This document shows positions 1,133 to 53,788 of a DNA stretch of 64,000 bases, piece after piece. Each line of letters opens with the position of its first letter. Position 1 is the stretch's first letter. The stretch lies in the NCBI GenBank assembly GCA_015956445.1, contig WIUZ02000020.1:496001-560000 (forward strand), read 5' to 3'. The DNA comes from Thelephora terrestris. Taxonomy: Eukaryota > Basidiomycota > Agaricomycetes > Thelephorales > Thelephoraceae. The notes below the pieces were generated by a model that was not told the origin of the DNA, did no database searches, and was given only the letters and a program-made list of their open reading frames with translations. The position numbers and the translations under genes were made by a program.

Positions 1133-2115
1133 GATCACCGATCTAGGCTATAAGAAGGATGTCTTCTTGGAGCCATCCTTGATCAGCAACACCAGCAACT
1201 TCCCCATCATCTTACCAAAATGTCTTTTCCCAACACCAACAACCATACCTACAAAGTTGCCAACGGCATCTCCACCATCTCTCGCATTGACCACCGTGCT
1301 GCCACTCGTAAGACCTATGCCACTGCGGCGGGGACTCCCTATACCACTGATGACCAGTCATGGGGGAGACCTAGAGCTTCATGTGTTTGCACTAACGCCT
1401 TCCTCTAGGTAGAGGTTACGTTCTTTTGGGCGTTGATGTCAAACTAACGGCTTCTAGATCTTGGAGATCATCACAGAGGTGGACGCAGAACGTCTCAGGG
1501 AGACGATTTCACATTTGATGGGGTTGACCTGGGATGACGAGCTTTGGGTTCGTACCATAATCGCTGAGAAGGTAGCCTTCCAGATGAGGGGTAGGTTCGG
1601 GGAGCTGGAGCATCCGATCAAGAAGGAGCTCTGGTACACCCTACAGAGGGGAATCTACAATCAGGACCTGTTGGAGCACGGAGCGACTGTTCCTAGGGCC
1701 ATCCGTCACGCCACCGCTTCCACTAGTCTCTTGTGGTCGCTCGTTCGGGAAGGGGAGAGCCGGGTAGGTTCTCTGTTTGAATATTCAAGTATGACTCTCG
1801 ACTAATCAAACTGCCTAGGTTGAACGATTGAAGCGCGAGGTGAAGGAGGTGAAGGCAGACGTTGTCAGGCCGACGCGACCTCTACAGTTCAATAGCACTC
1901 TTGCTATCCAAACCTATTGCACACAAGGATCAAACACACAGTTATAACCCTGTTGCAAACCCAGGGATATCGGAAGTCTCTTCACAGACTAGATTGGAGA
2001 AGAGGAGAAAGAAGGAGACAAGGGTCTTCAGGCACTCTTGCTCTAAGCACACAGCAATAGAGGTCACAGAGAGTCTGATGATAACAAATCTAAGGAGTAC
2101 AGGCTAAACTACTCT

Positions 2116-2130
2116 GAGTATATATACTAC
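2116..2130 (-). promoter_or_regulatory. TATA box of alpha unit (U3/R border)
   Basis: gagtatatatactac, nearly palindromic, lies about 255 bp from the terminal TGTCAGG end. Transcription to the left would give a short R/U5. The same box is present in the second copy at 51625-51639. A second TATA box (tatataacc, near 2490) serves the plus-strand passenger gene starting at 2558. Confidence 0.55.
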
Positions 2131-2557
2131 TTAGATTTGTGACGTGACAGTGACATGTAACTACCCTAAAGATACAAACACAGACAAACATGGTCCATGC
2201 ACAGCACAGCATGGTCTGTGCGTTATGTGGTGACTAATGCTACAAATTATCAGCTGATAAACGAAAGTGTGGCGGCCAATAGCAATTTGAGAGCATTACA
2301 AAGCAGTTACAAAGCATGACGTAGCCTGGGAATGTTCGGAAGGAATGTGGGTATGACTGACTAACAGCCAATGGCAAAAGGGGAGCATATGACTAAGAAA
2401 TAGGGGCATATGATGTCATGTGGGTCATGCGCAGTAAACAATAGAAATGATGACTCAACTCCTGAGTCGTGGAAGGGGTGTGGCATTTGGTATATAACCA
2501 AAGGGGGTTGGATGACTGGGTCTCTCAACAAACCCACCTTTGTTACACACAGCCAAC

Positions 2558-3823
2558 ATGCCTCGTGCCTCTACTCGTGTTCCCACCCGCCGCTCTTCTT
2601 CCTACTCTCCTGTTCAGGAGAACAACTTCAATATCGACCGCTTCTCTCATGCTCGCCGTGATGCTTCCCGCCCTTATCCCACTTTGGGAAGCGTCATGGA
2701 CCGGACCGCCACTGCCGACCCTAATGAGGGCTTTACCGATTTAGGTGGGGGCCCTGCTTGCGCATTCCAATTCAGGAAACCAAGCTAACTCCTTTTAGGT
2801 TTTAGGGATTTTATCCAGGCTTCTCGTAGGGTGTCTCGGCGCAAGTTGGCGCGCATTGAGACGAACCCTTATGCGACCGAACTCCTTAACAGGGGTGTCG
2901 AGTTCGTCACTGAGACCAACGAGACCTTCAACTCTGTGTTGGAGGCCAGGGTTATCCATACGGGTAACGTTGGGTCCATGTTGATGGATGAGATTGCTCA
3001 TGTAAATGAGCGAGTTGATGGTCGTCGAGAAGAGATTGAGAAGCTGGAGAAGGAGTTCCTCGGATGTCATGAGGGCATCTTGAAGATTGAAGATGAGCAG
3101 GAGCAGCACGGTATGGCGATGGACAGGTTGAAGGTAAGAAAGTTTGGGTCCGGAGTAATTGACCTTTCTAACTCAAACTTTCTTTCAGGGAGAGGTGATC
3201 ACGTTGAAGGACTTGGTCCGGAGTCTTGTTGCAAAGACCGGAGAATTAGAGGACGATAAGGTAACGGGTAGGGGTTGAAGGTTTTTGATATCTTCTAACC
3301 CTACTTGTTTTAGGTTCGCCTTACTCGTTGTGTCTCCGAGTTGACCGGAGAAGTCCGGGATCTTCAGAGGAGGTGTAGCAAGCCGGAGGTCCAAGTCGAA
3401 GAGGAAGAAGGGGAAGAGGTTCTGCATCGGGCCGGGTCGCCGATTATCCCTAATCGGGCTGAGTCACCGCCCGCTCGTTTATTGGTCCGTCATGAGAACA
3501 GGTTGGTTCCCATCGACGATGAGGTCATTGAGATTGGGAGCGACCAATTCTATCAGAACGTAGGAGTCGTCCGTAGGGACACTCCTCGTCCTGAGTTCGT
3601 TTCTACTCCTTGGGGTAGTCGCTGTCAATGGCCTGCTCTGGAGTACGATCCGTACGCCGAGTTCGTTCCCGATAGTGAACCAAACTCTGATATGGAGCTT
3701 CCAGATTACGATGACTTGTCGGACGTGGACCCAAACGAGATCCGGGAGCAGAACTGGTTGAATGAGGAGTTGGTGAGGTCGGCATTGGAAGTAGTACAAA
3801 GGATCCGAAGAGATATTGATTAG
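2558..3823 (+). CDS. Antisense coiled-coil passenger gene of alpha (four exons)
   Basis: The start is ATG 2558 (MPRASTRVPTRR), with tatataacc about 65 bp upstream. Four exons at 2558-2744, 2799-3133, 3189-3260 and 3314-3823 are separated by GT-AG introns of 53-55 nt and give about 367 residues. The N-terminal ~60 residues are basic and Ser/Pro-rich; residues ~65-200 are rich in Glu, Lys and Leu with heptad spacing, so a long coiled coil is likely; the C-terminal ~140 residues are acidic, with a DDLSDVDPNE stretch. No transposase, reverse transcriptase or gag motif is seen. The gene runs against the LTR sense, which lets its introns survive retrotransposition. The second copy (52070-53327) has the same exon plan and differs mostly at third codon positions. 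The function is unknown; a regulatory or structural role for the element is inference. Confidence 0.75.
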
Positions 3824-4998
3824 ATAACTCTTTTGTACTGTTGGCTTCCAATGAACCTTCTTTCTATTTTGTTTATTGCGTGTGATCCATGAGTCGTAAA
3901 TCATAATAGTTTTCATAAGTCCAATCCAAGGGTCAGATTAATAAGCCGGTTGACTTCTGCGAGAGGTCAGCGCGCGACGCTTATTAATACATCCCTTGTT
4001 GTCGGTAGCCTGAATATCTACTAGTCGTCCAGGGGCAACGGAGGGCCAGGTAGGGGGGATCTTCATATGAAGGTCCGCCGGTACATGTTCATGTATTATA
4101 CCTCGGGTCTTCTGGGGTATCTTGACTAGTAGCACGTTCCACGTATTGGACTTTGAGTCGTTAAGCATAGGACATATTGCATAATAAACAGTTTACCGCC
4201 GTGTTTAGGGCATATCACCAACTGACTTAGTGGTGATGAGGCGTTAAATAATGGAAATGAAAGGGGGTAAATGGCGAAATCATCACAGACGTCCTCCGTT
4301 TGTCGGCAGAGGGTCTTCAGATAAAGGAGACCTTGGCCGCTTTCCAGCAGGGAACGAACAAGGCGTTGGAGGCGATGGTTGCCAACCATCAAGAGTTGAT
4401 CGCCGGGCTGAAGGTTCGAGACAACAACATCAAGGGGGCTTTGGCCAGGAGAGATGAAAAGGTAGCTTTCCTCATCTCGAAGACGAAATGAGGGAAGCTG
4501 ACACTTCTTCTAGACGGAAGAACTCGAGAATGTGGTGGCTGTGTTAACGGCGCAGGTCGAGTCCTTGCAGGGCAAAACCTGCAACTGTAAAGAGGTTCCC
4601 AAATTGGTTGGTCAGGGGACAGCCAATGTTCCGTTTGAGTTGGAGTACGCCGACGAGGTGGTACTCCCATCTCCTAACCCGTCATTCTATGCGACACCTC
4701 CGATCGAGAACTCGGTTCCCGTTCTGACTCCGGCTCCAGCTTCCACTCTGGCCGCGTCCGATAAGGAGAACTGCGGGCACTGCGCCTTGCTGCCGATCCA
4801 TCAGTTGGTGAAGATCGAGGATGAGGCCATGGAGGTTGACCGAGCTGAAGATGCTCCGAGGGTTGCCGAGGTACGTCCGGTGACTAAGGGGCAACGTTGC
4901 AAACGCTCTCGATGCCGTCCCGCCCATTGTATGACCGCGTCGGCTAATCCTTACCCTCGACCAGTTGAGTCGGATGGTGACCAATCTGGTAGAGGTGA

Positions 4999-10702: not shown

Positions 10703-11172
10703 TGTCAGGGCCACTCTTCGCCCTTCAGGTACCAGTGCTGTTGGTGAGTCGCAACTCCAACCAACAAGAAACAATGGGGCAAAGGGGGAACGACTTCCCT
10801 ATATCCACCCAAAGTCTACGTGGTCCAAAACGCGATGGACGAGCGTTCTCCGGTAGGTTGTCCGAATTCACAGCAGGAGTGCCGAGCCTCTATCAGGTAA
10901 ATCCCTATCGTCTTCTGAGGGCAGATACAAGAGCCCGAGGATGGCGCCTCAAACTGATGACTTGATCCAAAGAGCAGTGCGGAACTCGATGTCGTGTCCG
11001 AGCTCGCTTCAAACACCGGTTAAGGATCAAGACTGAGTGAGAGAGGAGAGCGAACGGTTCAAGGAGTTACTCGATAAGCTCTTCAGTGGCCTACAGCAAT
11101 TACACCGATGCTGCAAGGAGAAGAGGACTTCCCGAGATATCAAAGATGGGGAGTCCTCAGCTACTCTACTGG

Positions 11173-11183
11173 TACTTATATAG
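11173..11183 (-). promoter_or_regulatory. TATA box of gamma unit
   Basis: cctatataagt on the minus strand lies about 470 bp before the CA end of the unit. The equivalent box is present in the partial gamma copy near 28600. The position fits a U3/R border. Confidence 0.5.
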
Positions 11184-11633
11184 GAGAGTGGCCGGGACAT
11201 AGATAACCCTATCTAATAATAACTCGGAGCAAAGAAGGGCCGAGAGTAAGCACGAACAGTAAGCGGCCCGGAGTATAGAATTGAAATGATAAGGGAATGA
11301 CTAATGGGTCAGGGTTCGTGAGAGAATAAGAAAGGGGTCATGACGTCGTGTGGGAAAGGAATGACAAAGGATAATATCACATGCAAGGACGAACCAATGA
11401 GAGGACGACGCGTAAGTACGTTCGATCGGGACAATAAAAGACCGAGTGGGGCTTGAATGTCGAGGGCGAATGTATGAGGAGTCTGGACCGGTGAAACGAT
11501 GGGCCGAGCCAATGGCGAATAGGACGCGAGCGCTGTCGAGGGTCGAATAAAGCGTAGTGCGAACCGGCCATTGGATCCATCAAACTCCCTTCTTCCCAAG
11601 TCAACAATCCCACCAACCAACTACTCATCCATT

Positions 11634-13384
11634 ATGCCCATGATCTCCGATCGTGTCTTCCGTGCTGAGAATAGCACCGCTACCATCGAGTCCGCGGATC
11701 CTCGTTCCGTACAGAACAAGAGCTACTTTCTTCCGAACGCTAATGTGGCGTACCCCAGTTATCGCGAGGTGCGATGTCACGTGTCGCTGTTTGCTGGCAA
11801 CAACTGACATCGCATCGTAGATCTTCGCGGTTGCCGCCAAAGTGGATGCTCGACAACTGGAGGCGACGATAGCCAAGCCTCCCAACTACTTGACCATAGA
11901 CGACGAGCTGTGGTACCACAACTTGATCGACCACAAGTTGCAAGAGTCTATGCGCGGGGTCACGTTTGACACCGAGTTGCGTATGCCATGGGAGACTCCG
12001 GTGGCGTCATCGTTGTGGGGTCTCCTGAAGATGGGAATCTACGATCTGGGAAACGGTGAAGGAAGGTGGCCGGGAGCGACTCGTTCGCAACACTATACAG
12101 CAGCCGTTGGTCACCGTCTCTGGTTCCTTTTGAGGACCGAGCAGAAAGCGGTGAGTCGGTCTGTGCATCCCGCTTGTGGGATAACACTGACAGGCTTGTA
12201 GAATGAGCGGCTGAAGCGTGAAGTGAAGGAAGCGAAGGATGATGCCCGTAGGATGTACTCGGAAGCGTTGGACATGAAGAAGACGCTGCTCCTGATGAAC
12301 GATACGCTTCGCATCACGTTTGAGAGCGAGATGCTGGCGATGCGTGAAGAACACAATCGGTTGGTCGAGTCCTTGAAGGAACGGGATGACACCATTCAAC
12401 GAGACCTGATCGAGGTCGACCGACGGCTCAATCGTCATAGAAGGGCTCTGAATGAGCTCGACACCAAGGTTGGTGCGACTTCTCCTGGTCTTTGCCCAAG
12501 AGAGCTCATGCCATTCCTAGGTCGATACGTTGGACGATGCCTTGCCATTGTTGGGCGCTCGAGTCGAGTCGATGAGCGAGCGGTTGTGTCACTGCCGCAC
12601 TCGTTCGGTGGCTGCGGTTCGCGACGAGTCCGAGGACGAGTCGATACCTGATCGGATGGCTTCTCCCATAGGTGGGATGTCGGTTGACATATTTGGCTTG
12701 TCCACTGACATCTCTTCTTAGCTTCCGATGGGTCGTACCGCACACCTGCACATACTGACGGCGGGGAGGAGATCGTTCGCGAGACGTCTGAGGAGACGGC
12801 CGTGAATCCGGTTAGCAGTTCTCCCGAGTTGGAGTATGCGGGGGAGAACGAAGTGGCTGTTCCGATTCCGCCTCCGTCGATCTCGCCGGTGCGTGGGCAA
12901 CGTTCTATCCGTGCTCGTCGTTGGGTTCCTTATCGCGGGGCACTTCGTCCAGCGCACCGCATGCGTCCCAGTAATCCCAACGTTGTCCGCCAGGGTGGAG
13001 ACATCGAATCCACCGTCCTATTCCGATGCGACGATGCTACAGTGTCGCGTGGATCGCGGCGAGCTGATTCCGGTGGAGTCCGTCGACGTGAACGGCTTAA
13101 CCGACCTTACGCTCTTGTCGGTCCAGCGTGCAGCGGAAGCCGTTCGCCTGGTGGCTCAACTGACCGAGAGAGTGGAGGGTTGGTCAGTCCAGAGGACTCT
13201 GGATCAGACTACGGTCGATTCAGCGAGGAACCGCCTTCGCGCCGAGGTTCAGTTGGCCGTCGCTCATCGTCTGGAGGAAGCTCGGGTCGTCGAGATGGTC
13301 GACGAGGAAGTCGACGAGAATGCCTCGGAGGGGACGGAGGAGGAGGTTGCCAGTGCTGAGGAGTACTGGCAAACCAGGTCTTGA
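11634..13384 (+). CDS. Antisense coiled-coil passenger gene of gamma (six exons)
   Basis: The start is ATG 11634 (MPMISDRVFRAENS). Exons 11634-11768, 11821-12150, 12202-12468, 12521-12671, 12722-12888 and 12953-13384 join in frame across GT-AG introns of about 48-64 nt and give about 493 residues. The second exon has the motif DDELWYHNLIDHK, matching WDDELW in the beta gene; the third exon is a Glu/Lys/Leu-rich coiled coil (LKREVKEAKDD); the fourth has a CHCRTR patch followed by an acidic stretch; the last exon is 432 nt, the same length as the last exon of the beta gene, and ends in a Glu-rich tail. It is paralogous to the beta gene. The function is unknown, with no polymerase, integrase or transposase motif. 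The fifth intron is the least certain. Confidence 0.7.
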
Positions 13385-13635
13385 CGACCAGGGTTTGTAC
13401 GCCTTAGTCCTCGCCCATAGAGTCCGGGCGGATTCATCTTCGTCGGTTTGATAGCCTCGTGTCTTCGCCGTGCGCCTTGTGTAATATCATCAGTGTCCTT
13501 GTCTGTGTTCCTTGATGACGTGTGAGTCGTGATAAAGGAAATGATAAAATAAGAAAGGGGTATAGGTAAGGAAAGTGGGCGAAAGTTGGGTGTGAAAAAT
13601 GGTTCGAAAAGGGAATAAAATTCAGCACGCTGACA

Positions 13636-22479: not shown

Positions 22480-22925
22480 CCATGACCCATGGGTCATACG
22501 GCACCGTACGACAGTATGCCCTGCCCATGACCCATGGGTCGTACGGCGCCGTACGGTGGTTTGCCCTACCCATGACCCATGGAGCGTATGGCACCATACG
22601 ACAGTATGCCCTGCCCATGACCCATGGACCATACGGCGCTGTACAGTGGAATGCCTTGCCTATGACCCATGGGTTGTACAGTGCCATACGGTGGATTACC
22701 TCAAAAAGAATATTTAATGGACTACCTAATAAGGAACTATATGATGGATTACCTAAAAAGAAAATATTTGATGAATTACCTAAAAAGGAAAGATTTGATG
22801 GATCTCCCCAAAAAAGAAATATTTGATGGATTACCTAAAAAGAAAAAATTGCTTGACTGCCTAAAAGAGAAATAGTTGATGGATTACCTAAAAAGGAAAT
22901 ATCTGATTGATTCTGGAAAATAGCA
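22480..22925. repeat. Rest of FB-C1 left arm: 45-bp units then 27-bp repeats
   Basis: About four to five 45-bp units (to ~22690), then about seven 27-bp units of the form GATGGATTACCTAAAAAGG-AAATATTT (to ~22895). The 27-bp units mirror 23880-24125. The same GATTACC..AAAAAGGAAAT motif occurs in FB-A arms. Confidence 0.85.
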
Positions 22926-23599
22926 ACATCCTAACCTAACCTCAAGGCACTGCCAGATCAGGAATCCATTCACCTCTTGCATTAGTTTTCTGTTTGTAGT
23001 CCTGACTAACCCACTAAGCTGGACCTACCAGTTGGTAGACCTGCAAGCCAACAGGTCCATGGACTATATTCCATAAGCTGTGCCTGCCACCCAACCATAT
23101 TCACCTCTCTTGTACCAGATATTAACTTGATGACAAATAAAGCCAATCCACCTGGCTGAACCTATGACCCATTGGACTCATTAATTCATAAGTCTATAGG
23201 TCTGTGGGCCTGTAATGTGGAGGAACACACCCAGCTGGATTCTGGGTCTGTTCAGGTAGGTAAATTTGAGTTGTTGCTGAGTTTTGGCCTGGGCAAGAGA
23301 TGTTTTGTGAATGTGGTTGGTGGTAATTGAGTGGCAGGATCTTTTATGGAATACCAGTCCAAGGACCTTTTGGCTTGCAGGTCCACCAAATGGTAGGTCC
23401 AGGTTAGTAGGTGTGTTCAAGTGATAGCCAGCTTATGGCTAAATACAAGTGGAGGTCCCCCAAGGGGTATGCACTTTGCACTGCATTCCTGTAACCCATG
23501 TTACATGTTGGTGTGCTAGGCAAGGTCAAGTTTAAGTTAGGACTTGTTTGTCATGGGTCAGCTTAAGCAAAGCTATAGTCAGGTTGGATAGACCACTGC

Positions 23600-23760
23600 A
23601 GGTTAGGTTAGGGTGAAATGGGTTAGATTGGCTGTTTCAGGTTAGGTTAGGTTAGGTTAGGTTAGGTTAGGTTAGGTTAGGTTAGGTTAGGTTAGGTTAG
23701 GTTAGGTTAGGTTAGGGTTAGGTCAGGGTTAGGTTAGGTTAGATTGGATGATGTTAGCTT
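23600..23760. repeat. TTAGG tract of FB-C1 (right arm only)
   Basis: Nearly perfect TTAGG pentamers between 23638 and 23720. No matching tract remains in the left arm, which has an internal deletion relative to FB-C2. Confidence 0.85.
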
Positions 23761-23869
23761 AACCACTTTGGGTTAGTCAGGACTACAAACAGAAAACTAA
23801 TGCAAGAGGTGAATGGATTCCTGATCTGGCAGTGCCTTGAGGTTAGGTTAGGATGTTGCTATTTTCCAG

Positions 23870-24541
23870 AATCAATCAGATATTTCCTTTTTAGGTAATC
23901 CATCAACTATTTCTCTTTTAGGCAGTCAAGCAAATTTTTCTTTTTAGGTAATCCATCAAATATTTCCTTTTTAGGTAATTCATCAAATCTTTCCTTTTTA
24001 GGTAATGCATCAAATATTTTCTTTTTAGGTAATCCATCAAATATTTCCTTTTTAGGTAATTCATCAAATATTTCTCTTTTAGGTAATCCATTATATAGTT
24101 CCTTATTAGGTAATCCATTAATTTTTTTTTTCAAGGTAATCCACCGTACGGCACTGTACAATACATGGGCCATGGGCAAGGCATTCCACTGTACGGCGCC
24201 GTACGCTCCATGGGTCATGGGTAGGGCATACCACCGTACGGCGCCGTACGCTCCATGGGTTATGGGCAGGGCATACTGTCGTACGGCGCCGTACGACCCA
24301 TGGGTCATGGGCAGGGCATACCACCGTACGGCGCTGTACGGCCCATGGGTCATGGGAAGGGCATACCACCGTATGGCGCTGTACGGCCCATGGGTCATGG
24401 GAAGGGCATACCACCGTACGGCATTGTACAACCCATGGGTCATGGACAGGCCATACTGTCATACAGCACCGTACAACCCATGGGTCATGGGGCCCACACA
24501 CCATCGTATGGTCCATGGGTCATGGGGAAAAAGTAGCTGAA
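23870..24541. repeat. FB-C1 right arm: 27-bp repeats then 45-bp units
   Basis: 27-bp units to ~24125, then about nine 45-bp units to the terminus. Toward the outer end the units become degenerate (ATGACCC/CCATGGG kept, GTACGG changed), as they do in FB-C2 and in mirror image. Confidence 0.85.
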
Positions 24542-24898
24542 TGGGCTCAGATCCTTGCCCCATACATGCAATCCATACCGCCGAACGTCCATGACGGTTT
24601 TATCCGCATCGCAGTACCGCCTGCCCGCTGAAGATGACAAAATTGTGAGTAATACCGACGACTAGCTCCTGGGTATGAGGTGCACCTCATGCGTCGTCTG
24701 CCTCCTACCACTTTGGGAACACAGCTGACCCCATCCCCAGGTCCTTATCACCCGGTCGGAGAGCCCTTCGGGCTTCTCACCCTGTGTCTCTCTTCCTACG
24801 TATTTCCATATTTCAGATATCCTCGTGTGTCTCGTTGCATAAAATCCATCTCGTTTTTATTCCACCATTTTAGGACCATCACCTTAGCGACTCGCAAA
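24542..24898. other. Host-derived fragment next to FB-C1
   Basis: Reading outward from the element, the first ~90 bp could encode WAQILAPYMQSIPPNVHDG, perhaps part of a host gene into which FB-C1 inserted. Nothing recognisable follows up to the delta-like sequence at about 24899. Confidence 0.35.
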
Positions 24899-31419: not shown

Positions 31420-31866
31420 TGTCAGGGCCACTCTACCCCAACAACTACCAGTGCACTGAGCCGACTCCGCGGAGTACTCACTAGTCCAACTAGCTTGTGA
31501 GAGAACGATCACGTCTCTATTCTTCCGGTAGGTTGTCCGAGGTCACTACAAGTCAGGTCGAAATCCTAAAGAGAAACCCAACCTAAACCAAGCTTCGTTT
31601 GGTTTAACAAGCAAGGGTTGATCCCTACGGCAGGATTGATGACTCCACCAGTTGATCGACTGGACGCTCGAGGTGTTCTAATATGACTGCTGGGAGTCTA
31701 TAGTTACGAGGCGCAGTTGACGCGCAGAGCGGGAGGGAGAGCAGATGGGGGATGTCTTGGATCAAACAAGAAACTCTGACTTGTCCTTAACTGCAACTGG
31801 GCTGAGAAGGGCAGAGGATTTCCTGAGGTAACAAAACTAAGGTACTACGATACAGCCACAGTTGCT

Positions 31867-31879
31867 ACTTATACTAAAG
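31867..31879 (-). promoter_or_regulatory. TATA-like box of beta unit
   Basis: tagtataagtag on minus, about 450 bp before the CA end; it is conserved in the copy at 677-689. Its position matches those in alpha and gamma, which supports a shared U3/R design. Confidence 0.45.
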
Positions 31880-32800
31880 GAGTGGCCATGACGTCAATAC
31901 CCTAATATACCCTTATCAAGTCCAGAACAAAGGGAGATAAGGAGTGGGAGAACGCTAAGTAAGGGAAGCGAACAAGGGTGACGCGTGGGAGAATAAAGGA
32001 CAAAGGGCCTTACTAGCGTGTGAAGGATTGCATAAAAGATAAGGAATGTCCGCATGAAACATAGGGGTAAAGATAACACTAGTCCTAAAAGAAAGAGGGG
32101 CATGGGGTCATGAAAGTTCGTACCTGGGGATCACACCCAAGGGTCAGGTGGAAACCTCTCATTGCTTTGTGCAATTTTCGAGCGGCTCCAAGATAAGAGA
32201 CCATTCAGCATCCCTTGTTGTCTGTAGGCGGTAACAGCATCACGGACTAGTGGCAACCTCACATAGGTCCGAACATGAGGAGCACAGGCCTAGACTCATG
32301 GGACATGAGGGATTACAGATTCGCCGGCGTTTCACGCTAACGGCTACTTCCACATTCACTTGGCTAACCAAAAGGAGTCTAAGGCACTCCTTCCGAATAA
32401 CGGCGATTCCTTCCTCCGGTTAGGAGACTGTGATGTGACTGTCCACGTGTGTGATCAGGGTCCAGGGTTAATCGTAATCGTAAAGTCATGAGGAGTCATA
32501 AAAGGGGTTCGTGATGTCATAAAGGGGTCATCAGGGTCTTGAGACCTATTTTTAGTGCGCGCGCGTTCTAAGCGTTCCGGAACGAAGTTCTTCCAAGGCC
32601 GTCCCGCAGGCCGAGGTGTCAGCTTGATGTAGTAAGCCAACGATGATGGTACAGGGGCGGAAGTTGATGTGACCCGGACCAATGAGGTTCGTCGAGGTAG
32701 GTCACGTGAAGGATCACCGATCTAGGCTATAAGAAGGACGTCTTCTTGGAGCCATCCTTGATCAGCAACACCAGCAACTTCCCCATCAACTTACCACAAC

Positions 32801-34537
32801 ATGTCCTTCCCCAACAACCATACCTACAAAGTTGCCAACGGCATTTCCACCATCTCCCGTATTGACCGTCGCGCCGCTGCCCGCAAGTCCTACACCTGTG
32901 CAGCAGGGACTCCCTATACCACGGATGACCAGGTATGGGGGAGACCTAGAGCTTTGTGTGCTAGCACTAACGCCTTCCTCTAGGTAGAGGTTTGTTCTTT
33001 AGGCGTTGATGTCCAGCTAACAGCTTCTAGATCTTGGAGGTCGTCACAGAAGTGGACACCGAACGTCTCAGGGAGGCGATTCCTCACTTGATGGGATTGA
33101 CCTGGGACGACGAGCTCTGGGTCCATACGATCATCGCCGAGAAGGTGGCTTTCCAGATGAGGGGTAGGTTCGGGGAACTGGAGCATCCGATCAAGAAGGA
33201 GCTCTGGTACACCCTGCAGAGGGGAATCTACGATCAGGATCTGTTGGAGCATGGAGCTACCGTTCCTCGGGCCGTTTGCCATGCTACTGCTTCCACTAGT
33301 CTCTTGTGGTTGCTCGTTCGGGAGGGAGAAAGCCGGGTAGGTTTTCTGTCTGAACATTCGAGTATGACTCTCGACTAACCAGACTGCCTAGGTTGAACGA
33401 TTGGAGCGGGAGGTGAAAGAGGCGAAGGCAGACGTCCTTCGTCTGTCAGCGGAGGGTCTTCAGATGAAAGAGACCTTGGCTGCTTTCCAGCAGGGAACAA
33501 ACGAGGCGTTGGAGGCTATGGTCGCCAACCATCAAGAGTTGATAGCCGGGTTGAAGGTTAGGGATAACAACATCAAGGGGGCGTTGGCCAGGAGGGATGA
33601 AAAGGTGCTTTCAGCCTTTGCAGGTTTATGCAATGACTGAAAGACTTCCTCTAGACGGAAGAACTCGAGAACGTGGTGGCCGTATTGACAGCGCAGGTTG
33701 AGTCCTTGCAGGACAAGACCTGTAACTGTAAGAAGGGTCCCAAATTGGTTGGTCAGGGGACAGCTGATGTTCCGTTCGAGTTGAAGTATGCCGACGAGGT
33801 GGTACTCCCTTCGCCTAACCCATCGTCCTATGCAACGCCTCCGATTGAGAACGCGGTTCCCGTGCCCACTCCAGGTCCGGCTTCTACCTTGGCCGCTTCC
33901 GACAAGGAGAACTGTGGGCGCTGTGTCTTGCAGCCGATCCATCAGTTGGTGAAAATCGAGGATGAGGTCATGGAAGTTGACCGAGCTGAAGATGCTCTGA
34001 GGGTCGCCGAGGTACGTCCGGTGACTAAGGGGCAACGATGCAAACACTCTCGACGCCGTCCCGCCCATCGTATGACCGCGTCAGCTAATCCTTACCCTCG
34101 ACCAGTTGAGTCGGATGGTGACCAGTCTGGTCGAGGTGAGGAGCGAAGATTCCGCTATCGGGTCCACTGTCCCTACCGACAGGTCGAGTCCGAGATCCAG
34201 CTCCGACACCAGCTTCTCCTCGCACAGCAGGATCCCACCCAGGGGTCCGATGAGGGAGACGGAGGGTCGCTTGCCGACTACGTCGATAGTGCTGTCGAGC
34301 AGTCACCCGGTGATGGAGATGTGGGACCAGGTGTTCCAGAGTTCGGTGACATCTGGGAGGCTGATCGGTCCGCTCGAAGGCATCTCTTCCTATCGGCTTG
34401 AACTAGTCGTTCAGCTGAGTGCCGAAGACGGTGATGCCATGTTCGGAGAGGTTCTTGCGAGGAGGGGCCAACACTACGATCTCCGGGATGGACGGTTGAT
34501 GACCTTCAGGCCTGCCATAGATAGAGTCGACTTTTGA
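32801..34537 (+). CDS. Antisense coiled-coil passenger gene of beta (five exons)
   Basis: The start is ATG 32801 (MSFPNNHTYKVANG), about 75 bp after a ctataagaag TATA-like box. Exons 32801-32932, 33031-33336, 33392-33604, 33655-34011 and 34106-34537 keep frame across GT-AG introns of 50-98 nt, giving about 479 residues. Order: basic N-terminus; a conserved domain with WDDELWVHTIIAEK; a coiled coil (VERLEREVKEAKADVLRL onward, through exon 4); a CNCKKGPK patch; a Pro-rich segment; an acidic patch; and a Ser/Arg-rich tail followed by a predicted helical end. It is paralogous to the gamma gene (same DDELW motif, same 432-nt last exon). Reading straight through the last intron is also open. No known enzyme motif. 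Looks whole; function unknown. Confidence 0.75.
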
Positions 34538-34723
34538 GGACGTTGTATAAGCATTAGTATAGCCATGTTATTCCGTATTGCCGTGAACGTATGCGCGTTT
34601 GTGTGTTTTGAATGATTGGTATGAAGGATAAGGAGTGTGAAGCATTCAAAACATAAGAAGTGGTAAGAAGAGTTCGAAGAAAGAGCGTGTTATAAAAAGT
34701 TTAAAAATACCATGTTCCTGACA

Positions 34724-34847: not shown

Positions 34848-35590
34848 CCATGACCCATGGACCGTACGGCGTGACAAAATCCCATGACCCATGGGCCATA
34901 CGTTGCCGTACGACAGGTACAAATCCCCATGACCCATGGACCGTACGATGGTGTGTGGGCCCCATGACCCATGGGTTGTACGGTGCTGTATGACAGTATG
35001 GCCTGTCCATGACCCATGGGTTGTACGATGCCGTACGGTGGTATGCCCTTCCCATGACCCATGGGCCGTACGGTGGTGCTGGACAGCCATCCACCCTGCC
35101 CATGACCCATGGGGCGTACGGCGCCGTACGGTGGTATGCCCTGCCCATGACCCATGGGTCATACAGCGCCGTACGGGGGTTTGCCCTACCCATGACCCAT
35201 GGGTCGTACGGCGCCGTACGACAGTATGCCCTGCCCATGGCCCATGGAGCGTATGGCGCCGTACGGTGGTATGCCCTACCCATGACCCATGGAGCGTACG
35301 ACGCCGTACGGTGGTATGCCCTGCCCATGACCCATGGGTCGTACGGCGCCGTACGACAGTATGCCCTGCCCATGACCCATGGAGCGTACGGCGCCGTACG
35401 ACAGTATGCCCTGCCCATGACCCATGGACCGTACGGCGCTGTACAGTGGAATGCCTTGCCCATGACCCATGGGTTGTACGGTGCTGTATGGTGGTATGCC
35501 CTATCCATGACCCATGGAGCGTATGGCGCCGTACAGTGGAATGCCTTGCCCATGGCCCATGGGTTGTACAGTGCCGTACGGTGGATTACC
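34848..35590. repeat. 45-bp palindromic units, FB-C2 left arm
   Basis: About 16 units with CCATGACCCATGG and GTACGGCGCCGTACGG palindromes. Every unit keeps the CATG(A/G)CCCATGG core, while the second palindrome varies. Open frames on both strands up to 269 codons are by-products of the 45-bp period. Confidence 0.9.
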
Positions 35591-35599
35591 TTGAAAAAA

Positions 35600-35860
35600 A
35601 AAAATAATGGATTACCTAATAAGGAACTATATAATGGATTACCTAAAAGAGAAATATTTGATGAATTACCTAAAAAGGAAATATTTGATGCATTACCTAA
35701 AAAGAAAATATTTGATGCATTACCTAAAAAGGAAAGATTTGATGAATTACCTAAAAAGGAAATATTTGATGGATTACCTAAAAAGAAAAATTTGCTTGAC
35801 TGCCTAAAAGAGAAATAGTTGATGGATTACCTAAAAAGGAAATATCTGATTGATTCTGGA
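35600..35860. repeat. 27-bp GATTACC repeats, FB-C2 left arm
   Basis: About nine units of GATGGATTACCTAAAAAGG-AAATATTT. They mirror 37160-37375. Confidence 0.88.
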
Positions 35861-35964
35861 AAATAGCAACATCCTAACCTAACCTCAAGGCACTGCCAGA
35901 TCAGGAATCCATTCACCTCTTGCATTAGTTTTCTGTTTGTAGTCCTGACTAACCCAAAGTGGTT

Positions 35965-36110
35965 AAGCTAACATCATCCAATCTAACCTCACCTAACCTA
36001 ACCTAACCTAACCTAACCCTGACCTAACCCTAACCCAACCCTCACCTAACCTAACCTAACCTAACCTAACCTAACCTGAAACAGCCAATCTAACCCATTT
36101 CACCCTAACC
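35965..36110. repeat. TTAGG-type tract, FB-C2 left arm
   Basis: CCTAA pentamers, mostly perfect, with a few CCCTAA variants. They mirror 36890-37035. As in FB-A, the C-rich strand is on the left arm. Confidence 0.85.
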
Positions 36111-36889
36111 TAACCTGCAGTGGTCTATCCAACCTGACTATAGCTTTGCTTAAGCTGACCCATGACAAACAAGTCCTAACTTAAACTTGACCTTGCCTAG
36201 CACACCAACATGTAACATGGGTTACAGGAATGCAGTGCAAAGTGCATACCCCTTGGGGGACCTCCACTTGTATTTAGCCATAAGCTGGCTATCACTTGAA
36301 CACACCTACTAACCTGGACCTACCATTTGGTGGACCTGCAAGCCAAAAGGTCCTTGGACTGGTATTCCATAAAAGATCCTGCCACTCAATTACCACCAAC
36401 CACATTCACAAAACATCTCTTGCCCAGGCCAAAACTCAGCAACAACTCAAATTTACCTACCTGAACAGACCCAGAATCCAGCTGGGTGTGTTCCTCCACA
36501 TTACAGGCCCACAGACCTATAGACTTATGAATTAATGAGTCCAATGGGTCATAGGTTCAGCCAGGTGGATTGGCTTTATTTGTCATCAAGTTAATATCTG
36601 GTACAAGAGAGGTGAATATGGTTGGGTGGCAGGCACAGCTTATGGAATATAGTCCATGGACCTGTTGGCTTGCAGGTCTACCAACTGGTAGGTCCAGGTT
36701 AGTAGGTGTGTTCAAGTGATAGCCAGCTTATGGCTAAATACAGGTGGAGGTCCCCCAAGGGGTATGCACTTTGCACTGCATTCCTGTAACCCATGTTACA
36801 TGTTGGTGTGCTAGGCAAGGTCAAGTTTAAGTTAGGACTTGTTTGCCATGGGTCAGCTTAGGCAAAGCTATAGTCAGGTAGGATAGACC

Positions 36890-37035
36890 ACTGCAGGTTA
36901 GGTTAGGTTGAAATGGGTTAGATAGGCTATTTCAGGTGGGTTGGGTTAGGTTAGGTTAGGTTAGGTTAGGTGAGGGTTAGGTTAGGGTTAGGTTAGGTTA
37001 GGTTAGGTTAGGTTAGGTTAGGTTAGGTTAGATTG
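36890..37035. repeat. TTAGG-type tract, FB-C2 right arm
   Basis: TTAGG pentamers in mirror position to 35965-36110, interrupted by the same short variants in a different order. Confidence 0.85.
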
Positions 37036-37159
37036 GATGATGTTAGCTTAACCACTTTGGGTTAGTCAGGACTACAAACAGAAAACTAATGCAAGAGGTG
37101 AATGGATTCCTGATCTGGCAGTGCCTTGAGGTTAGGTTAGGATGTTGCTATTTTCCAGA

Positions 37160-38165
37160 ATCAATCAGATATTTTCTTTTTAGGTAATCCATCAACTATT
37201 TCTCTTTTAGGCAGTCAAGCAAATTTTTCTTTTTAGGTAATCCATCAAATATTTCTTTTTGGGGGAGATCCATCAAATCTTTCCTTTTTAGGTAATTCAT
37301 CAAATATTTCCTTTTTAGGTAATCCATCATATAGTTCCTTATTAGGTAATCTATTAAATATTTTTTTCGAGGTAATCCACCGTATGGCACTGTACAACCC
37401 ATGGGTCATAGGCAAGGCATTCCACTGTACAGCGCCGTATGGTCCATGGGTCATGGGTAGGGCATACCACCGTACAGCACCGTACGCTCCATGGGTCATG
37501 GGCAGGGCATACTGTCGTACGGCGCCGTACGCTCCATGGGTCATGGGTAGGGCAAACCCCCATACGGCGCCGTACGACCCATGGGTCATGGGTAGGGCAT
37601 ACCACCGTACGGCGCCGTACGCTCCATGGGTCATGGGTAGGGCATACCACCGTACGGCATCGTACGCTCCATGGGTCATGGGCAGGGCATACTGTCGTAC
37701 GGCGCCGTACGCTCCATGGGTCATGGGTAGGGCAAACCCCCATACGGCGCCGTACGACCCATGGGTCATGGGCAGGGCATACTGTCGTACGGTGCTGTAC
37801 GACCCATGGGTCATGGGTAGGGCATACTGTCGTACGGCGCCGTACGACCCATGGGTCATGGGTAGGGCATACCACCGTACGGCACCGTACGCCCCATGGG
37901 TCATGGGCAGGGTGGATGGCTGTCCAGCACCACCGTACGGCCCATGGGTCATGGGAAGGGCATACCACCGTACGGCATCGTACAACCCATGGGTCATGGA
38001 CAGGCCATACTGTCATACAGCACCGTACAACCCATGGGTCATGGGGCCCACACACCATCGTACGGTCCATGGGTCATGGGGATTTGTACCTGTCGTACGG
38101 CGACGTATGGCCCATGGGTCATGGGATTTTGTCACGCCGTATGGCCCATGACCCATGGGGAAAAA
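37160..38165. repeat. FB-C2 right arm: 27-bp repeats then 45-bp units
   Basis: 27-bp units to about 37375, then about 17 units of 45 bp. Unit order and variants largely mirror the left arm, including one odd unit containing CTGTCCAGCACCACC near 37920 that matches 35076-35092. Confidence 0.9.
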
Positions 38166-38635: not shown

Positions 38636-38906
38636 TGTCACGAACGCGTGACATAGTAGCCAAGATCATACAAATAATTCAAGACATTGGTCTTATTCGC
38701 AGTAATAATAGTACAAGGAGGACCAACAAGAACTACAAACTTAGACAAGAACAAACGGGTCTACGTCGCATGAACAATCCTGAGCAAACGGGCAACAATG
38801 AGTGAAGTGGTGAGGGTTATGCACACTCTCAGGACAGTACGAATACTCCTGCGTTACCGGATCCTGCCAACACTCCCTACATCCCAACACATCATGATAT
38901 AGACTA

Positions 38907-39644
38907 TCATGCATCTCCCGCTTCACGTCCGACAAGGCTGCGCTCACTAAGGCAAACCCATAGCGGTCTTGGAGACCCGCCACTTCCACCTTCAACTTCA
39001 TCCGAACTTGACGTGATTTGTCGGAGGGACGACAGCGTTGACCAGAACGAGTCATCGGATTCCTGCGGTTCTTCTTCTTCTGGGACCTCTCCACCATCTG
39101 GCGAACTGGGGCAGGTCTCCAAGGAGGGGATGGAGGGAGAGGAACGCCCTGATCCTGGCGGTGGCGAAGGGATGACTGGGGACTTGCAAGGGGGGTCGGT
39201 GCAATAAGCCCCGTGACATTGGTGTCCGAAATATCGGAAGAGAGATGCCTGGAAAGGTCCCCAATGTTCCAAAGCAAAGTGAGAGAAGTCATCATTCAAA
39301 CTATTCATGATGACGTACATGAGGTCCACACATTTCTCCAGTTTCGCAATCCTATCTTCTCTCTCCCTCTCCATGGCGTCCAGCAAAAGGACGGCTCCGG
39401 GGTGACCTGCTTGAAGACGAGGCCTAGAAGACCTGGGGTCCTCGTACCCAGCCTGTTCCCAGAACTCGGCAGGGGTGTTGTGAGCGGTGAGAAAGTCCAC
39501 GGCAACCTGGTTGTCGTGGGCAATGTTGGCAGGAGAGTCATACAGATGTTGCTCCACATTGTAGGGAGCATCCGTTTCGAAGGATGGAGTGAAGGGGGTG
39601 GCCGCAGCGCTAAGTACAGCGTTGGTGGTGGTGAAAGCAGACAT
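38907..39644 (-). CDS. Antisense gene of delta, 245-residue frame
   Basis: The start is at 39644 (MSAFTTTNAVLSAAAT). It has the same domain order as the copies at 20168 and 58484: conserved N-terminal ~90 residues, a short coiled coil (MEREREDRIAKLEKCVD), a Cys patch (GHQCHGAYCTDPPC), and an acidic Ser/Pro-rich end with PEEEEPQESDDSF. An overlapping +1 frame runs to 38741 and carries the Cys/His-rich tail. The sequence differs from the 58-kb copy at many sites while the protein stays close, which suggests past selection. The promoter faces the intergenic repeats at 39780-39990. Function unknown. Confidence 0.62.
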   Translation of the reverse strand: MSAFTTTNAVLSAAATPFTPSFETDAPYNVEQHLYDSPANIAHDNQVAVDFLTAHNTPAEFWEQAGYEDPRSSRPRLQAGHPGAVLLLDAMEREREDRIAKLEKCVDLMYVIMNSLNDDFSHFALEHWGPFQASLFRYFGHQCHGAYCTDPPCKSPVIPSPPPGSGRSSPSIPSLETCPSSPDGGEVPEEEEPQESDDSFWSTLSSLRQITSSSDEVEGGSGGSPRPLWVCLSERSLVGREAGDA

Positions 39645-40153
39645 AGTAATAACTGGTAGTTGAGGAGGAAGAGGAGTGGTGGTTGGTTTGGTGGGAGTGG
39701 AAAAGAGACGATGAGGGGAACGATCATTAATCCCCCTGACTTAAATACTTCCTGACTCAAAGGAAACCAAAAAGGGAAAACAATAACCCATTATCCATTA
39801 AACGTCCCCATTAGGATAAACGAACCCTCAACCCCAATCGTGATCCCATCAAATTCAGAGAAATCCCCATTGATCATGGGAAATCCCCATCCGTCTTCTA
39901 CTACCACCGTGAAACCGGAGAAATCTCCACCAATCATGAGAAATCCCACCAGTCTTCTATTACTACCATCGATCGTGAGAAATCCCCATTACGCTCCAAA
40001 TGGCTCCTTTACTATTGTTCCCCTATTTCATTTCGTAATTTGTCGTTCCAAAGTCCCACTCCCCTGACTCGTCCAACCTACCCTAAACTACGCACAGACC
40101 ATGTTGACTCCTGTTTGACTCATTGTAAATAATGACTCCTGTAGAGGATTGGG

Positions 40154-40162
40154 TATATAAGG
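40154..40162 (+). promoter_or_regulatory. TATA box of delta unit
   Basis: tatataagg, about 150 bp upstream of the sense gene; the same box is at 61541-61549 and, inverted, 57971-57979. Placed as an LTR U3/R promoter would be, here about 790 bp before the CA end. Confidence 0.6.
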
Positions 40163-40308
40163 AAGAGCGTTCGCTCCTTTCTTTTCCCCATTCTCAATCT
40201 CTTCTGTACTTCGCTACCCACAACTTGAATAACAAAGTAAGCTGAGGAATTCTCCTCACGCCTTACCTTCTCTGACTCATCCGAAAGCAGGAATCCTCCT
40301 GCCAGTGT

Positions 40309-40932
40309 ATGTTCAGTCCCCCAAACCCTTTTCCCTCTACTAGTCCAGTCCAGCAACCAAACGTCCCCGACGCCAGGAGATCTATCTGGGAGTACAAGCT
40401 TATCAGAAGCCTCCAAGTAAACCGAACCGCCGGCTTACTTACCCATTTCCCTTATTACTGACCCTTTGCAGCTCTCGACGCCGGAGTCACTACTCCCCCT
40501 TTCCTCCTAGGAGCAGATCATCAATTCCTCTGGAATTTGGATCTTACGGAAAGTGTTCTTGCTACTGTTTACTTCAGTATCAGTCCAGCCTTCTATTTTC
40601 CCTCACCCCGTGTTCACCTTACCGCTAACATCCATACCCACTCTCCTGCTATCATTGTTCTCTGGTGGGAGATCCCAACTGAATTACCTTATTCGGTTAT
40701 AGAATACCTCGTCAATTTCGAACGACTCAGCGACCAAGACTTCGAACCCTTTGTGCAGCAACTCAGTCAGTTCTGCCAAGACTATCACTCACCCGTCCAT
40801 CCGTATTCAACAGAATCACCTCTTGCTCTTGATATCCCTCCTCCTCTTGTCTCCACACCCGGAACCCCCTTCAAAACTAGACCCGATACTCCTCACCCTT
40901 CCGCTAATCCTCTAGTGCCCCACAAACAGTAA
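40309..40932 (+). pseudogene. Sense gene of delta, broken copy
   Basis: Homologous over its whole length to the intact frame at 61691-62314 (MFS..PNPFPSTSPVQ start, PSANPLVPHKQ end). It is broken at about one place; otherwise the protein is closely conserved. Confidence 0.65.
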
Positions 40933-41460
40933 GCAGGCCCACAACCCTGACAGTTGTTACTCCTACCTGCAATTTCGTGCAACATACAGCCCCTGCTCGC
41001 TTATCTTCTCCACGGTTTGGCTCCAGGTTCCAGTGCTTAGATGGTTGTGCGCTCTCCTTAGGGCCTTGTCGGTCGGGTATGCCGTTCTCACTGTTCTTTT
41101 AATCATTTCACGTGACGCTGACTGCTGCCACTCTTCAAGTTGTGCGAATCAAACTTTCACCAAGTCATTGCCCTTGGTCGTCACTCATATACAACACCTT
41201 TACTTGTGTACTATTGGTAGATAATATACATAATAGTTTTCACCCACAATCAACCACGACATCCGTCAAACACGTGTCAGAAAAGAGGTTGCAACGGCGC
41301 CCAGGTGTTTGTGGTGATGTTACATAAAGGTACCCTACAAATATTCCCACGAATTACTGTCTTCTTTGAGAGTTATGGAGCTAGGGTCACATCGTACCAG
41401 ATTTCAACTGTGGTTGTGACTGTGCGCAAAGCGGTGGACGCGAGCCCCTGTTGAACATTT

Positions 41461-44201: not shown

Positions 44202-44329
44202 TTCAGCTATCTTTTCTCCATGGGTCATGGACCATACATCGTGACAATTCTCCATGGGTCATGGGCCATGCAACGTTGTACAACGCGTTGTACAACCCAT
44301 GACCCATGGAGAAAAGATACCATTGTACA

Positions 44330-45360: not shown

Positions 45361-45474
45361 TTATATCACTATTCCAGGAAAGGAGATACTTTATAAATCA
45401 ACCATTAGCTGTGTGAATTTGAAAAAATTAGACTCTGTTTGTATGCATGATAGACCATATATCAGTTTGTGGCT

Positions 45475-45710
45475 CTAACCTAATGGAAACTAAACTTAAC
45501 CTGATAATAGCCACAACCTAATCCTCAATCTAACCTGAGCCAATGTAAACTTGACCCATGAACCTAAGCCTAACCTAATCCTAAACCTGGTCTAATCCCA
45601 AATCTAACCCTAACCTGACCTGACCTAACCTAACCTAACCTAACCTATACCTAAACTAACCTAAACCTATACTAACCTATACCTAACCTAACCTGGTATG
45701 GGCAAACCTA
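45475..45710. repeat. TTAGG-type tract, FB-D left arm
   Basis: Degenerate CCTAA units mixed with CCTAAAC and CCTATAC variants; mirror of 46330-46620. Confidence 0.75.
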
Positions 45711-46620: not shown

Positions 46621-46734
46621 ACAAACTGATATATGGTCTATCATGCATACAAACAGAGTCTAATTTTTTCAAATTCACACAGCTAATGGTTGATTTATAA
46701 AGTATCTCCTTTCCTGGAATAGTGATATAATCCA

Positions 46735-51371: not shown

Positions 51372-53788
51372 TGTCAGGCCGACGCGACCTCTACAGTTCA
51401 ATAGCACTCTTGCTATCCAAACCTATCACACACAGGGGTCAAATACACAATTATAACCCTGTTGCAAACCCAGGGATATCGGAAGTCTCTTCACAGACTA
51501 GATTGGAGGTGAGGAGAAAGAAGGAGACAAGGGTCTTCAGGCACTCTTGCTCTAAGCACACAGCAGTAGAGGTCACGGAGAGTCTGATGATAACAAATCT
51601 AAGGAGTACAGGCTAAACTACTCTGAGTATATATACTACTTAGATTTGTGACGTGACAGTGACATGTAACTACACTATGGATACAAACACAGACAAACAT
51701 GGTCCGTGCGCAGCACTGCATGGTCTGTGCGTTACGTGGTGACTAATGCTACAAATTATCAGCTGATAAACAAAAGTGTGGCGGCCAATAGCAATTTGAG
51801 AGCATTACAAAGCAATTACAAAGCATGACGTAGCCTGGGAATGTTCGGAAGGAATGTGGGTATGACTGACTAACAGCCAATGGCAAAAAGGGAGCATATG
51901 ACTAAGAAATAGGGGCATATGATGTCATGTGGGTCATGCGCAGTAAACAATAGAAATGATGACTCAACTCCTGAGTCGTGGAAGGGGCGTGGCATTTGGT
52001 ATATAACCAAAGGGGGTTGGATGACTGGTCTTCCAACAAACCCACCTTTGTCACACACACACAGCCAACATGCCTCGTGCTCAAACTCGTGTTCCCACTC
52101 GCCGCTCTTCCTCCTACTCTCCTGTTCAGGAGAATAACTTCAACATCGACCGCTTCTCCCATGCTCGTCGAGATGCCTCTCGTCCTTATCCCACTTTGGG
52201 AAACGTCATGGACCGGACCGCCACCGCCGACCCTAATGAGGGTTTTACCGATTTAGGTGGGGGCCCTGCTTGCGCATCCAATTCAGGAAACCAAGCTAAC
52301 TCCTTTTAGGTTTTAGGGATTTCATCCAGGCTTCTCGTAGGGTGTCTCGGCGCAAGTTGGCGCGCATTGAGACAAACCCTTATGCGACCGAACTCCTCAA
52401 TAGGGGTGTCGAGTTCGTTACCGAGACCAACGAGACCTTCAACTCCGTGTTGGAGGCTAGCGTTATCCATACGGGTAACGTTGGGTCTATGTTAATGGAC
52501 GAGATAGCCCATGTTAATGAGCGAGTTGATGGTCGTCGCGAAGAGATCGAGAAGCTGGAGAAAGAGTTCCTTGGATGTCATGAGGGCATCTTAAAGATTG
52601 AAGATGAACAGGAGCAGCATGGTATGGCGATTGACAGGTTGAAGGTAAATGTGGGGTCGGGAGATATTGGACATCTCTAACCCAACATTTCCTTTTAGGG
52701 AGAGGTGATCACGTTGAAGGACTTGGTCCGGAGTCTTGTCACCAAAACCGGAGAATTGGAGGACGATAAGGTAACGGGTAGGGGTTGAAGGTTTTTGATA
52801 TCTTCTAACCCTATCTGTTTTAGGTTCGCCTTACTCGTCGTGTCTCTGAGTTGACCGGAGAAGTCCGGGATCTCCAGAGAAGGTGTAACGAGCCGGAGGT
52901 CCGAGTTGAGGAAGAGGATGAGGTTCTGCATCGGGCCGGGTCGCCGATCATCCCTAATCGGGCTGAGTCGCTGCCCGCTCGTTTGTTGGTCCGTCACGAG
53001 AACAGGTTGGTTCCCGTTGATGATGAGGTCATTGAGATTGGGAGCGACGAATTCTACCAGAACGTAGGAGTCGTCCGTCGGGACACTCCTCGTCCTGGGT
53101 TTGTGTCTACTCCTTGGGGTAGTCGTCGTCAATGGCCTGCCTTGGAGTATGACCCGTACGCCGAGTTCGTTCCCGATAGTGAACCAAACTCTGATACGGA
53201 GCTTCCAGATTACGATGACTTGTCAGACGTGGATCCAAACGAGATCCGGGAGCAGAACTGGTTGAATGAGGAGTTGGTGAGATCGGCATTGGAAGTAGTA
53301 CAAAGGATCCGAAGAGATATTGATTAAATAACTCTTTTGTACTGTTGGCTTCCAATGAATCTTCTATATTGTCTATTGCGCGTGATCCATGAGTTGTAAA
53401 GCATAATGGTTTTCATAAGTCCAACCCAAGGGTCAGATTAATAAGCCGGTTGACTTCTGCGAGAGGTCAGCGCGCGACGCTTATTAATACATCCCTTGTT
53501 GTCGGTAGCCTGAATATCTACTAGTCGTCCAGGGGCAACGGAGGGCCAGGTAGGGGGGATTTTCGTATGAAGGTCCGCCGGTACATGTTCACGTATTATA
53601 CCTCGGGTCTTCTGGGGTATCTTGACTAGTAGCACGTTCCACGTATTGGACTTTTGAGTCGTTAAGCATAGGGCATATTGCATAATAAACAGTTTACCGC
53701 CGTGTTTAGGGCAGGGCACCAACTGACTTAGTGGTGATGAGGCGTTAAATAAAGGAAATGAAAGGGGGTAAACGGCGAAATCATCACA
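51372..53788 (-). mobile_element. LTR-like unit alpha, copy 2 (solo) in the KDZ gene
   Basis: A 2417-bp unit with the same ends as copy 1 (TGTCAGGCCGAC...AATCATCACA). Flanks GCGTT (51367-51371) and GCATT (53789-53793) are a 5-bp duplication that has since changed at one position. It contains the four-exon antisense gene and the TATA box (51625-51639). Looks whole. Confidence 0.83.
52070..53327 (+). CDS. Antisense coiled-coil passenger gene of alpha, copy 2
   Basis: Exons 52070-52256, 52310-52644, 52699-52770 and 52824-53327 give about 365 residues, two fewer than copy 1 because of a shorter Glu run near the start of exon 4. A tatataacc box lies about 65 bp upstream of the ATG. The proteins differ at few positions although the DNA differs at many third positions, and the second intron is much more diverged than the exons. 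This pattern fits purifying selection after the copies separated or in their parents. It has the same coiled-coil and acidic C-terminal plan as copy 1. Confidence 0.77.

Follow-up and report, generated by a model that had tools for sequence, protein, structure and literature searches.

A predicted intron-bearing antisense gene within the long terminal repeats of two Ty3/Gypsy chromovirus lineages in Thelephora terrestris

The window, the whole 64,000-nucleotide stretch analysed here, is G000:C13:496001-560000 of the 40.6-Mb, 60-contig assembly of Thelephora terrestris. It carries units of four repeat families, alpha, beta, gamma and delta, each with a gene of its own (Table 1). The alpha unit starts with TGTCAGGGCC and ends with TTCCTGACA, with TCCAC at either side, and the long terminal repeats (LTRs) of the alpha and delta families measure 2.9-3.3 kb. 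A further alpha copy, covering about positions 1-6084, is interrupted within its gene by the second beta copy. The same window also contains three large palindromes, at 6605-10244, 15572-20143 and 55611-63909, which are 96%, 90% and 99% self-complementary. The last has 4117-nt arms that are 100% complementary, with one gamma copy per arm. All three may be genuine or may be assembly artefacts. Tandem repeats of 45-bp and 35-bp period, inverted relative to one another, occupy about 21046-24575, 35004-37991 and 44226-48131.

Table 1. Units, genes and predicted signals in the window
Feature	Position	Strand	Exons or evidence
Alpha unit, solo LTR of a chromovirus family	31420..34723	- (LTR sense)	5-bp duplication TCCAC; gag-pol-flanking alpha pairs elsewhere
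Alpha antisense gene, 479 aa	32801..34537	+	exons 32801-32932, 33031-33336, 33392-33604, 33655-34011, 34106-34537
Predicted TATA-like box upstream of alpha antisense gene	32727..32736	+	sequence
Alpha LTR-sense TATA-like box	31868..31875	-	sequence
Putative alpha self-primer stretch, complementary to primer site of alpha elements	31828..31839	-	12-nt match
Delta unit, solo LTR of a second chromovirus lineage	10703..13635	-	5-bp duplication GTTAT; gag-pol-flanking delta pairs elsewhere
Delta antisense gene, 493 aa	11634..13384	+	exons 11634-11768, 11821-12150, 12202-12468, 12521-12671, 12722-12888, 12953-13384
Delta LTR-sense TATA-like box	11175..11182	-	sequence
Putative delta self-primer stretch	11137..11147	-	11-nt match
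Beta unit, LTR status inferred	51372..53788	- (presumed LTR sense)	duplication GCGTT/GCATT, 4/5 bases; TATA-like box 51626-51637
Beta gene	52070..53327	+	exons 52070-52256, 52310-52644, 52699-52770, 52824-53327
Second beta copy, in gene of interrupted alpha copy	1863..4287	-	duplication GACGT, perfect
Gamma unit, LTR status inferred	38636..40952	+ (presumed LTR sense)	duplication GTTGT, perfect; TATA-like box 40154-40162
Gamma antisense gene, 277 aa	38741..39644	-	one predicted intron, 39249-39318; pN/pS 0.19
Gamma second ORF, towards CA end	40309..40929	+ (presumed LTR sense)	in-frame stop in window copy

All four units belong to families dispersed through the assembly. By searching the 40.6 Mb for the end patterns of each unit with up to three mismatches, we found 410 alpha, 171 delta, 217 beta and 211 gamma ends (starts for the last), and reversed-pattern controls gave no match. 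Among the loci fetched, window copies included, 5-bp duplications were perfect in 8/8 alpha, 3/4 beta and 6/6 gamma copies, one of these gamma copies having a shortened start. An earlier sequence-only reading had described four LTR-like families, each with a gene, and this description holds: the units repeat genome-wide, have 5-bp duplications (four of five bases in the beta unit at 51372) and show codon constraint in one frame. Among about 40 candidates scored per family, identity to the window copy was 89-94% for alpha, 91-95% for beta and 85-91% for full-length gamma copies. Judged by this divergence, gamma may be older than alpha, and beta is not.

To place the units within complete elements, we started from 120 listed reverse transcriptase (RT) matches in the assembly and read six alpha and three delta full-length elements. 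In 9/9 elements, two LTRs in the same orientation enclose gag-pol within perfect outer 5-bp duplications. The two LTRs of an element are 99.94-100% identical in alpha (six elements) and 99.93-99.97% in delta (three), and the internal regions span 5.1-6.0 kb. A primer site follows the 5' LTR, and the 3' LTR is preceded by a purine-rich stretch. The delta pol contains, by Pfam, protease, RT, RNase H, integrase, a Tf2-type SH3 domain and a chromodomain, and the delta gag carries a zinc knuckle; the piece of alpha pol scanned runs from the end of RT to the chromodomain. Given this domain content, the elements are Ty3/Gypsy chromoviruses, and alpha and delta are their LTRs. In both, pol and the LTR-borne gene are encoded on opposite strands. 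A pattern joining the U5 end to the sequence after the primer site matched 11 elements (eight alpha, three delta; control 0), or about 2% of the alpha and delta insertions represented by the 410 and 171 ends; the nine elements read leave out two alpha places on contig C23. Two alpha primer-site matches of like orientation, at G000:C23:1032749 and C23:1042059, are separated by 9.3 kb and may belong to a tandem array with a common middle LTR. Another RT class in this genome has short LTRs of about 300 bp (copies on C7 and C23).

These pairs bear on a different reading, which sees in the units DNA transposons, or a one-unit type of element that makes 5-bp duplications, and in their gene a transposase or helper. 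Nearly all copies are indeed single, and beta and gamma lack a pair among the ends searched, as such a reading would expect. Against it stand the nearly identical alpha and delta pairs that flank gag-pol within common outer duplications in every element read, together with the absence of any transposase family among the Pfam matches of the antisense gene products, and we regard it as very unlikely. The sequence-only reading had itself named DNA transposons as the alternative; for alpha and delta, and for those two only, the gag-pol pairs refute it. Its proposal that pairs of units flank gag and pol is likewise borne out for alpha and delta and lacks a counterpart in beta and gamma, for which no pair was found among the first 100 ends listed per family.

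The alpha and delta LTRs each contain a stretch complementary to the primer site of their own elements; it begins 34-35 nt beyond the first nucleotide of the TATA box in LTR sense. Matches of this length occurred in 0/2000 random internal windows for alpha and 7/2000 for delta. Primer sites complementary to the mRNA start are described for self-priming elements of the Tf1/Tj1 type in the available part of PMC4600332. Alpha and delta are thus probably self-primed in a Tf1-like manner, with an mRNA start deduced from the complementary stretch. On this basis, R would begin close to 31839 in the alpha unit and 11147 in the delta unit, leaving U3 regions of about 2.9 and 2.5 kb, and the whole antisense gene lies within U3. 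Like alpha and delta, the Tf1/Tj1 elements of fission yeasts are Ty3/Gypsy elements with a chromodomain or Tf2-type SH3 domain; their primer site is complementary to the mRNA start, as that of alpha and delta would be (PMC4600332, in part). Alpha and delta differ from them in their long LTRs of 2.9-3.3 kb with an antisense gene, and no such gene is mentioned for Tf1/Tj1-type elements in the portion of PMC4600332 available.

The antisense gene is predicted to have four introns in alpha (five exons) and five in delta (six exons). The sequence-only reading had listed several introns in alpha, beta and gamma: the four alpha introns and the four beta exons agree with this, the gamma antisense gene has one predicted intron, and delta, missing from that list, is intron-bearing as well. 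The models match annotated relatives in length, P0002 with 481 aa for alpha (the first junction adds two residues) and P0072 with 493 aa for delta. At least 71 clusters, with at least 257 T. terrestris member sequences, match the alpha gene among the 8000 candidates sharing most words that were scored, and are annotated as hypothetical protein. Beyond this assembly, the antisense gene family was represented by short pieces only, 31 of 107 profile matches (JGI, ENA, 'src'; 7999 candidates scored), on contigs of at most 5.3 kb where a length is given. Protein P0071 (BJ322DRAFT_1103824) matches the first exon of the alpha antisense gene over its first 46 residues and is unlike it in the remainder; it is possibly a host gene using a solo-LTR exon, or an annotation fusion.

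Intron sequence was kept in 14/14 alpha and 4/4 delta copies, including all nine full-length elements read, and GT and AG were intact at every intron except at two donors, one of them in a single alpha copy and the other in a single delta copy. Since the LTRs of the full-length elements have near-identical partners, these nine intron-bearing copies were recently reverse-transcribed. Three aligned intron positions are common to both genes, following residues 44, 146 and 217 in alpha and 45, 155 and 244 in delta, all in phase 0; the fourth intron of alpha and the fourth and fifth of delta are unmatched. The two antisense proteins are 31% identical over 318 columns, compared with 61% for pol (1298 columns) and 29% for gag (425 columns). 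Because the proteins are homologous and share three intron positions while pol has diverged to 61%, the antisense gene and these introns are, on this sequence comparison, older than the split between the alpha and delta lineages.

We consider it highly probable that alpha and delta are U3-R-U5 repeats of two related chromovirus lineages, in which U3 is a divergent promoter region with a complete intron-bearing antisense gene. One TATA box in U3 would drive gag-pol genomic RNA towards U5. From the same region, the intron-bearing gene would be transcribed in the other direction and end inside U3. Its introns, being antisense to the genomic RNA, could not be spliced from it, as judged from how splicing works, and would for this reason survive reverse transcription. 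Spliced transcripts of the gene, made from either LTR or from one left solo, would yield an accessory protein.

To assess constraint on the LTR-borne genes, we compared 14 alpha copies (the window copy, seven solos and six from full-length elements), four delta copies (the window copy and three from full-length elements), five beta and seven gamma copies, each against the window copy. In the gene frame, pN/pS was 0.146 for alpha and 0.060 for delta, and the frame was open in 12/13 other alpha, 3/3 other delta and 5/5 beta copies. Beta gave 0.07 in its gene frame versus 2.4 and 3.4 in the other two same-strand frames; across alpha, delta and beta, the wrong same-strand frames ranged from 1.9 to 3.4. 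Over the seven gamma copies, the ratio was 0.19 for the spliced antisense gene and 0.077 for the second ORF. On the opposite strand, one frame per family was also low (0.20, 0.17 and 0.13), yet above the gene frame in all three, and we take it as the mirror of the true frame. Ratios in the promoter-R-U5 part were 0.41-1.07. By these ratios, the amino acids of the alpha and delta gene are under purifying selection.

Sites varying in several copies gave lower ratios than singletons, 0.12 versus 0.21 in alpha and 0.01 versus 0.08 in delta, with 0.04 versus 0.11 in beta under an earlier model whose third intron was wrong. Stronger constraint at multi-copy sites fits selection acting while the elements replicate. 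The ratios for singletons are also far below 1, however, and the copies may therefore be young or under continuing constraint. Between copies of alpha, beta and delta, the antisense gene varies more at its synonymous sites (0.17-0.26) than the LTR does outside the gene (0.03-0.05); the rest of the LTR may be constrained as well, or the gene region may have been exchanged between lineages.

The pattern of constraint also speaks to whether the antisense gene was captured from the host or rides along as passive cargo, dispensable to the element. Its host-like introns, its own TATA-like box and the annotation of its matches as hypothetical proteins (in at least 71 clusters and at least 257 member sequences) would suit such an origin. 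The constraint is strong, however, and stronger at sites varying in several copies than at singletons, and two pol lineages carry homologous genes with common introns, which makes this alternative as a whole improbable. In a second alternative, the antisense transcript and not the protein is what matters, pairing with genomic RNA or feeding silencing. Such a transcript would overlap with U3 and have complementarity to the genomic RNA at its 3' end, and a role at the RNA level has been proposed for plant antisense ORFs in the available part of PMC7264820. The constraint on amino acids, with wrong same-strand frames at 1.9-3.4, argues for the protein and leaves a purely RNA-based explanation with little probability, although additional RNA effects would be compatible with it.

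What the protein does can be approached through its sequence character. No Pfam family scored above its cut-off for the antisense gene products, queried with a short 426-aa delta model and the earlier beta model, and no transposase family matched. As to a bZIP domain, the alpha protein scored 11.2 bits with bZIP_1, whose cut-off is 27.6, and the 426-aa delta query gave no match. Heptad periodicity as high as observed was reached by 7 of 1000 shuffles for alpha, 0 for delta and 34 for beta, the last from a partly wrong model. Profile matches of coiled-coil type were weak and below cut-off, and a search of solved structures returned two such weak matches. The coiled coil that the sequence-only reading had assigned to these proteins rests on the heptad periodicity and on these weak matches; the product is probably an accessory protein with a coiled coil.

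By analogy with HBZ of HTLV-1 (PMC1459196, in part) and with the nuclear antisense protein of Grande (PMC7264820, in part), we propose a nuclear accessory role. As the most likely function we tentatively suggest an HBZ-like regulator, acting in trans on LTR transcription or silencing. Alternatively, the protein might work in assembly of the element, in its nuclear import or in its integration, and not in transcription. The antisense protein of maize Grande is nuclear, according to the accessible text of PMC7264820, and coiled coils occur in structural proteins. Present data are equally compatible with a regulatory role, and we hold the non-transcriptional alternative to be rather unlikely.

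Beta and gamma share the overall plan of a gene-bearing unit. We searched for an RT between same-orientation neighbours 3.5-16 kb apart, using the first 100 of the 217 beta ends, the first 100 of the 211 gamma ends and the 120 listed RTs, and found none between 8 beta and 14 gamma pairs. Three of the 8 beta and 6 of the 14 gamma pairs were read, giving 18 copies: the far end was not found at its expected place in 10, and the 8 copies readable at both ends each had their own duplication. Beta ends lie on both sides of two RTs: at C4:1124363 the two beta ends stand in the same orientation, 16.07 kb apart, with the RT on the opposite strand, and the second RT is that of an alpha element. One RT on C6 has gamma ends on both sides in opposite orientation, and gamma copies near RTs on C15 and C45 lacked a second gamma unit beyond the RT. 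The gamma pair C23:1053195/1064229 was rejected as a full element, its copies being 87% identical with differing duplications. Between two gamma solos, positions 1630-7191 of locus L019 (C23:1055300-1064400) contain one ORF of 1014 aa, which weakly matches a zinc knuckle and a protease, and another of 839 aa, for which Pfam gave nothing; no RT match occurs in that stretch. For beta, a primer-site pattern extrapolated from the alpha and delta sites had no match in the assembly.

At the alpha and delta rate, about two full-length elements would be expected per 100 ends searched, and for this reason the missing beta and gamma elements are weak evidence. As beta is, by divergence, not older than alpha, age alone would not explain its missing internal parts. 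Comparison with the alpha and delta proteins did not establish homology, with a BLAST E value of 0.034 (beta against delta) and hhalign probabilities of 6.6% for beta and 0.3% for gamma. The third intron of beta follows a lysine about 20 residues before a cysteine, as does the third intron of alpha and delta, a likeness that is suggestive only. We lean towards beta and gamma being LTRs of the alpha/delta design, by analogy, with internal parts that were lost or missed.

Antisense accessory genes have precedents in plants. Grande gene23, RIRE2 and Retand TRP28 are antisense accessory ORFs of plant Ty3/Gypsy elements, located between pol and the 3' LTR in the available parts of PMC7264820 and PMC11963269. 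As in alpha and delta, a conserved accessory gene runs antisense to gag-pol, and the Grande protein is nuclear. The plant ORFs occur once per element, between pol and the 3' LTR, whereas the alpha/delta gene lies inside U3 of both LTRs, outside the aORF-3R location; it also differs in having four to five introns and in being retained in solo LTRs. Retand is of a plant non-chromovirus lineage in the same partial sources, whereas alpha and delta are chromoviruses, and the word 'intron' is absent from the text of PMC7264820 and PMC11963269.

Animal retroelements offer further parallels. According to the accessible part of PMC1459196, HBZ is antisense, spliced and started in the LTR, and encodes a protein of leucine-zipper or coiled-coil type. 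It starts in R/U5 of the 3' LTR with its main coding part internal, in contrast to the multi-intron alpha/delta gene, which lies wholly in U3; as a comparison of architecture, with no claim of homology, HBZ is a fair structural analogy. The mussel Steamer-like element MchSLE-1, likewise an LTR retrotransposon, resembles our proposal in that its 3' LTR gives rise to an antisense mRNA, with an ORF of 67 residues (PMC10974842, in part), and the word 'intron' does not occur in the text of that paper. Intron-bearing antisense genes inside an LTR were not found in the full-text literature searched, subscription papers excepted. Another animal retrovirus, MMTV, has a protein gene, Sag, within its LTR in sense orientation, whereas the alpha/delta gene is antisense. 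Antisense accessory ORFs were thus already known, and a multi-intron gene inside an LTR appears new, none having been found in the literature searched.

More tentatively, U3 may be a self-contained accessory gene, such that the solo LTRs left once recombination has removed gag-pol (this genome has 410 alpha and 171 delta LTR ends) stay behind as stand-alone genes whose protein is selected for its action in trans on LTR transcription or silencing, a counterpart of HBZ that outlives its element. The hypothetical proteins that match the alpha gene (at least 257 sequences in at least 71 clusters) are probably genes of these elements. Passage through an RNA intermediate normally strips a gene of its introns; in this case, three have been inherited through reverse transcription since before the pol lineages diverged to 61%, apparently because they are antisense. 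With the accessory gene placed in the part of the element that survives as a solo LTR, the usefulness of solo LTRs to the element becomes testable.
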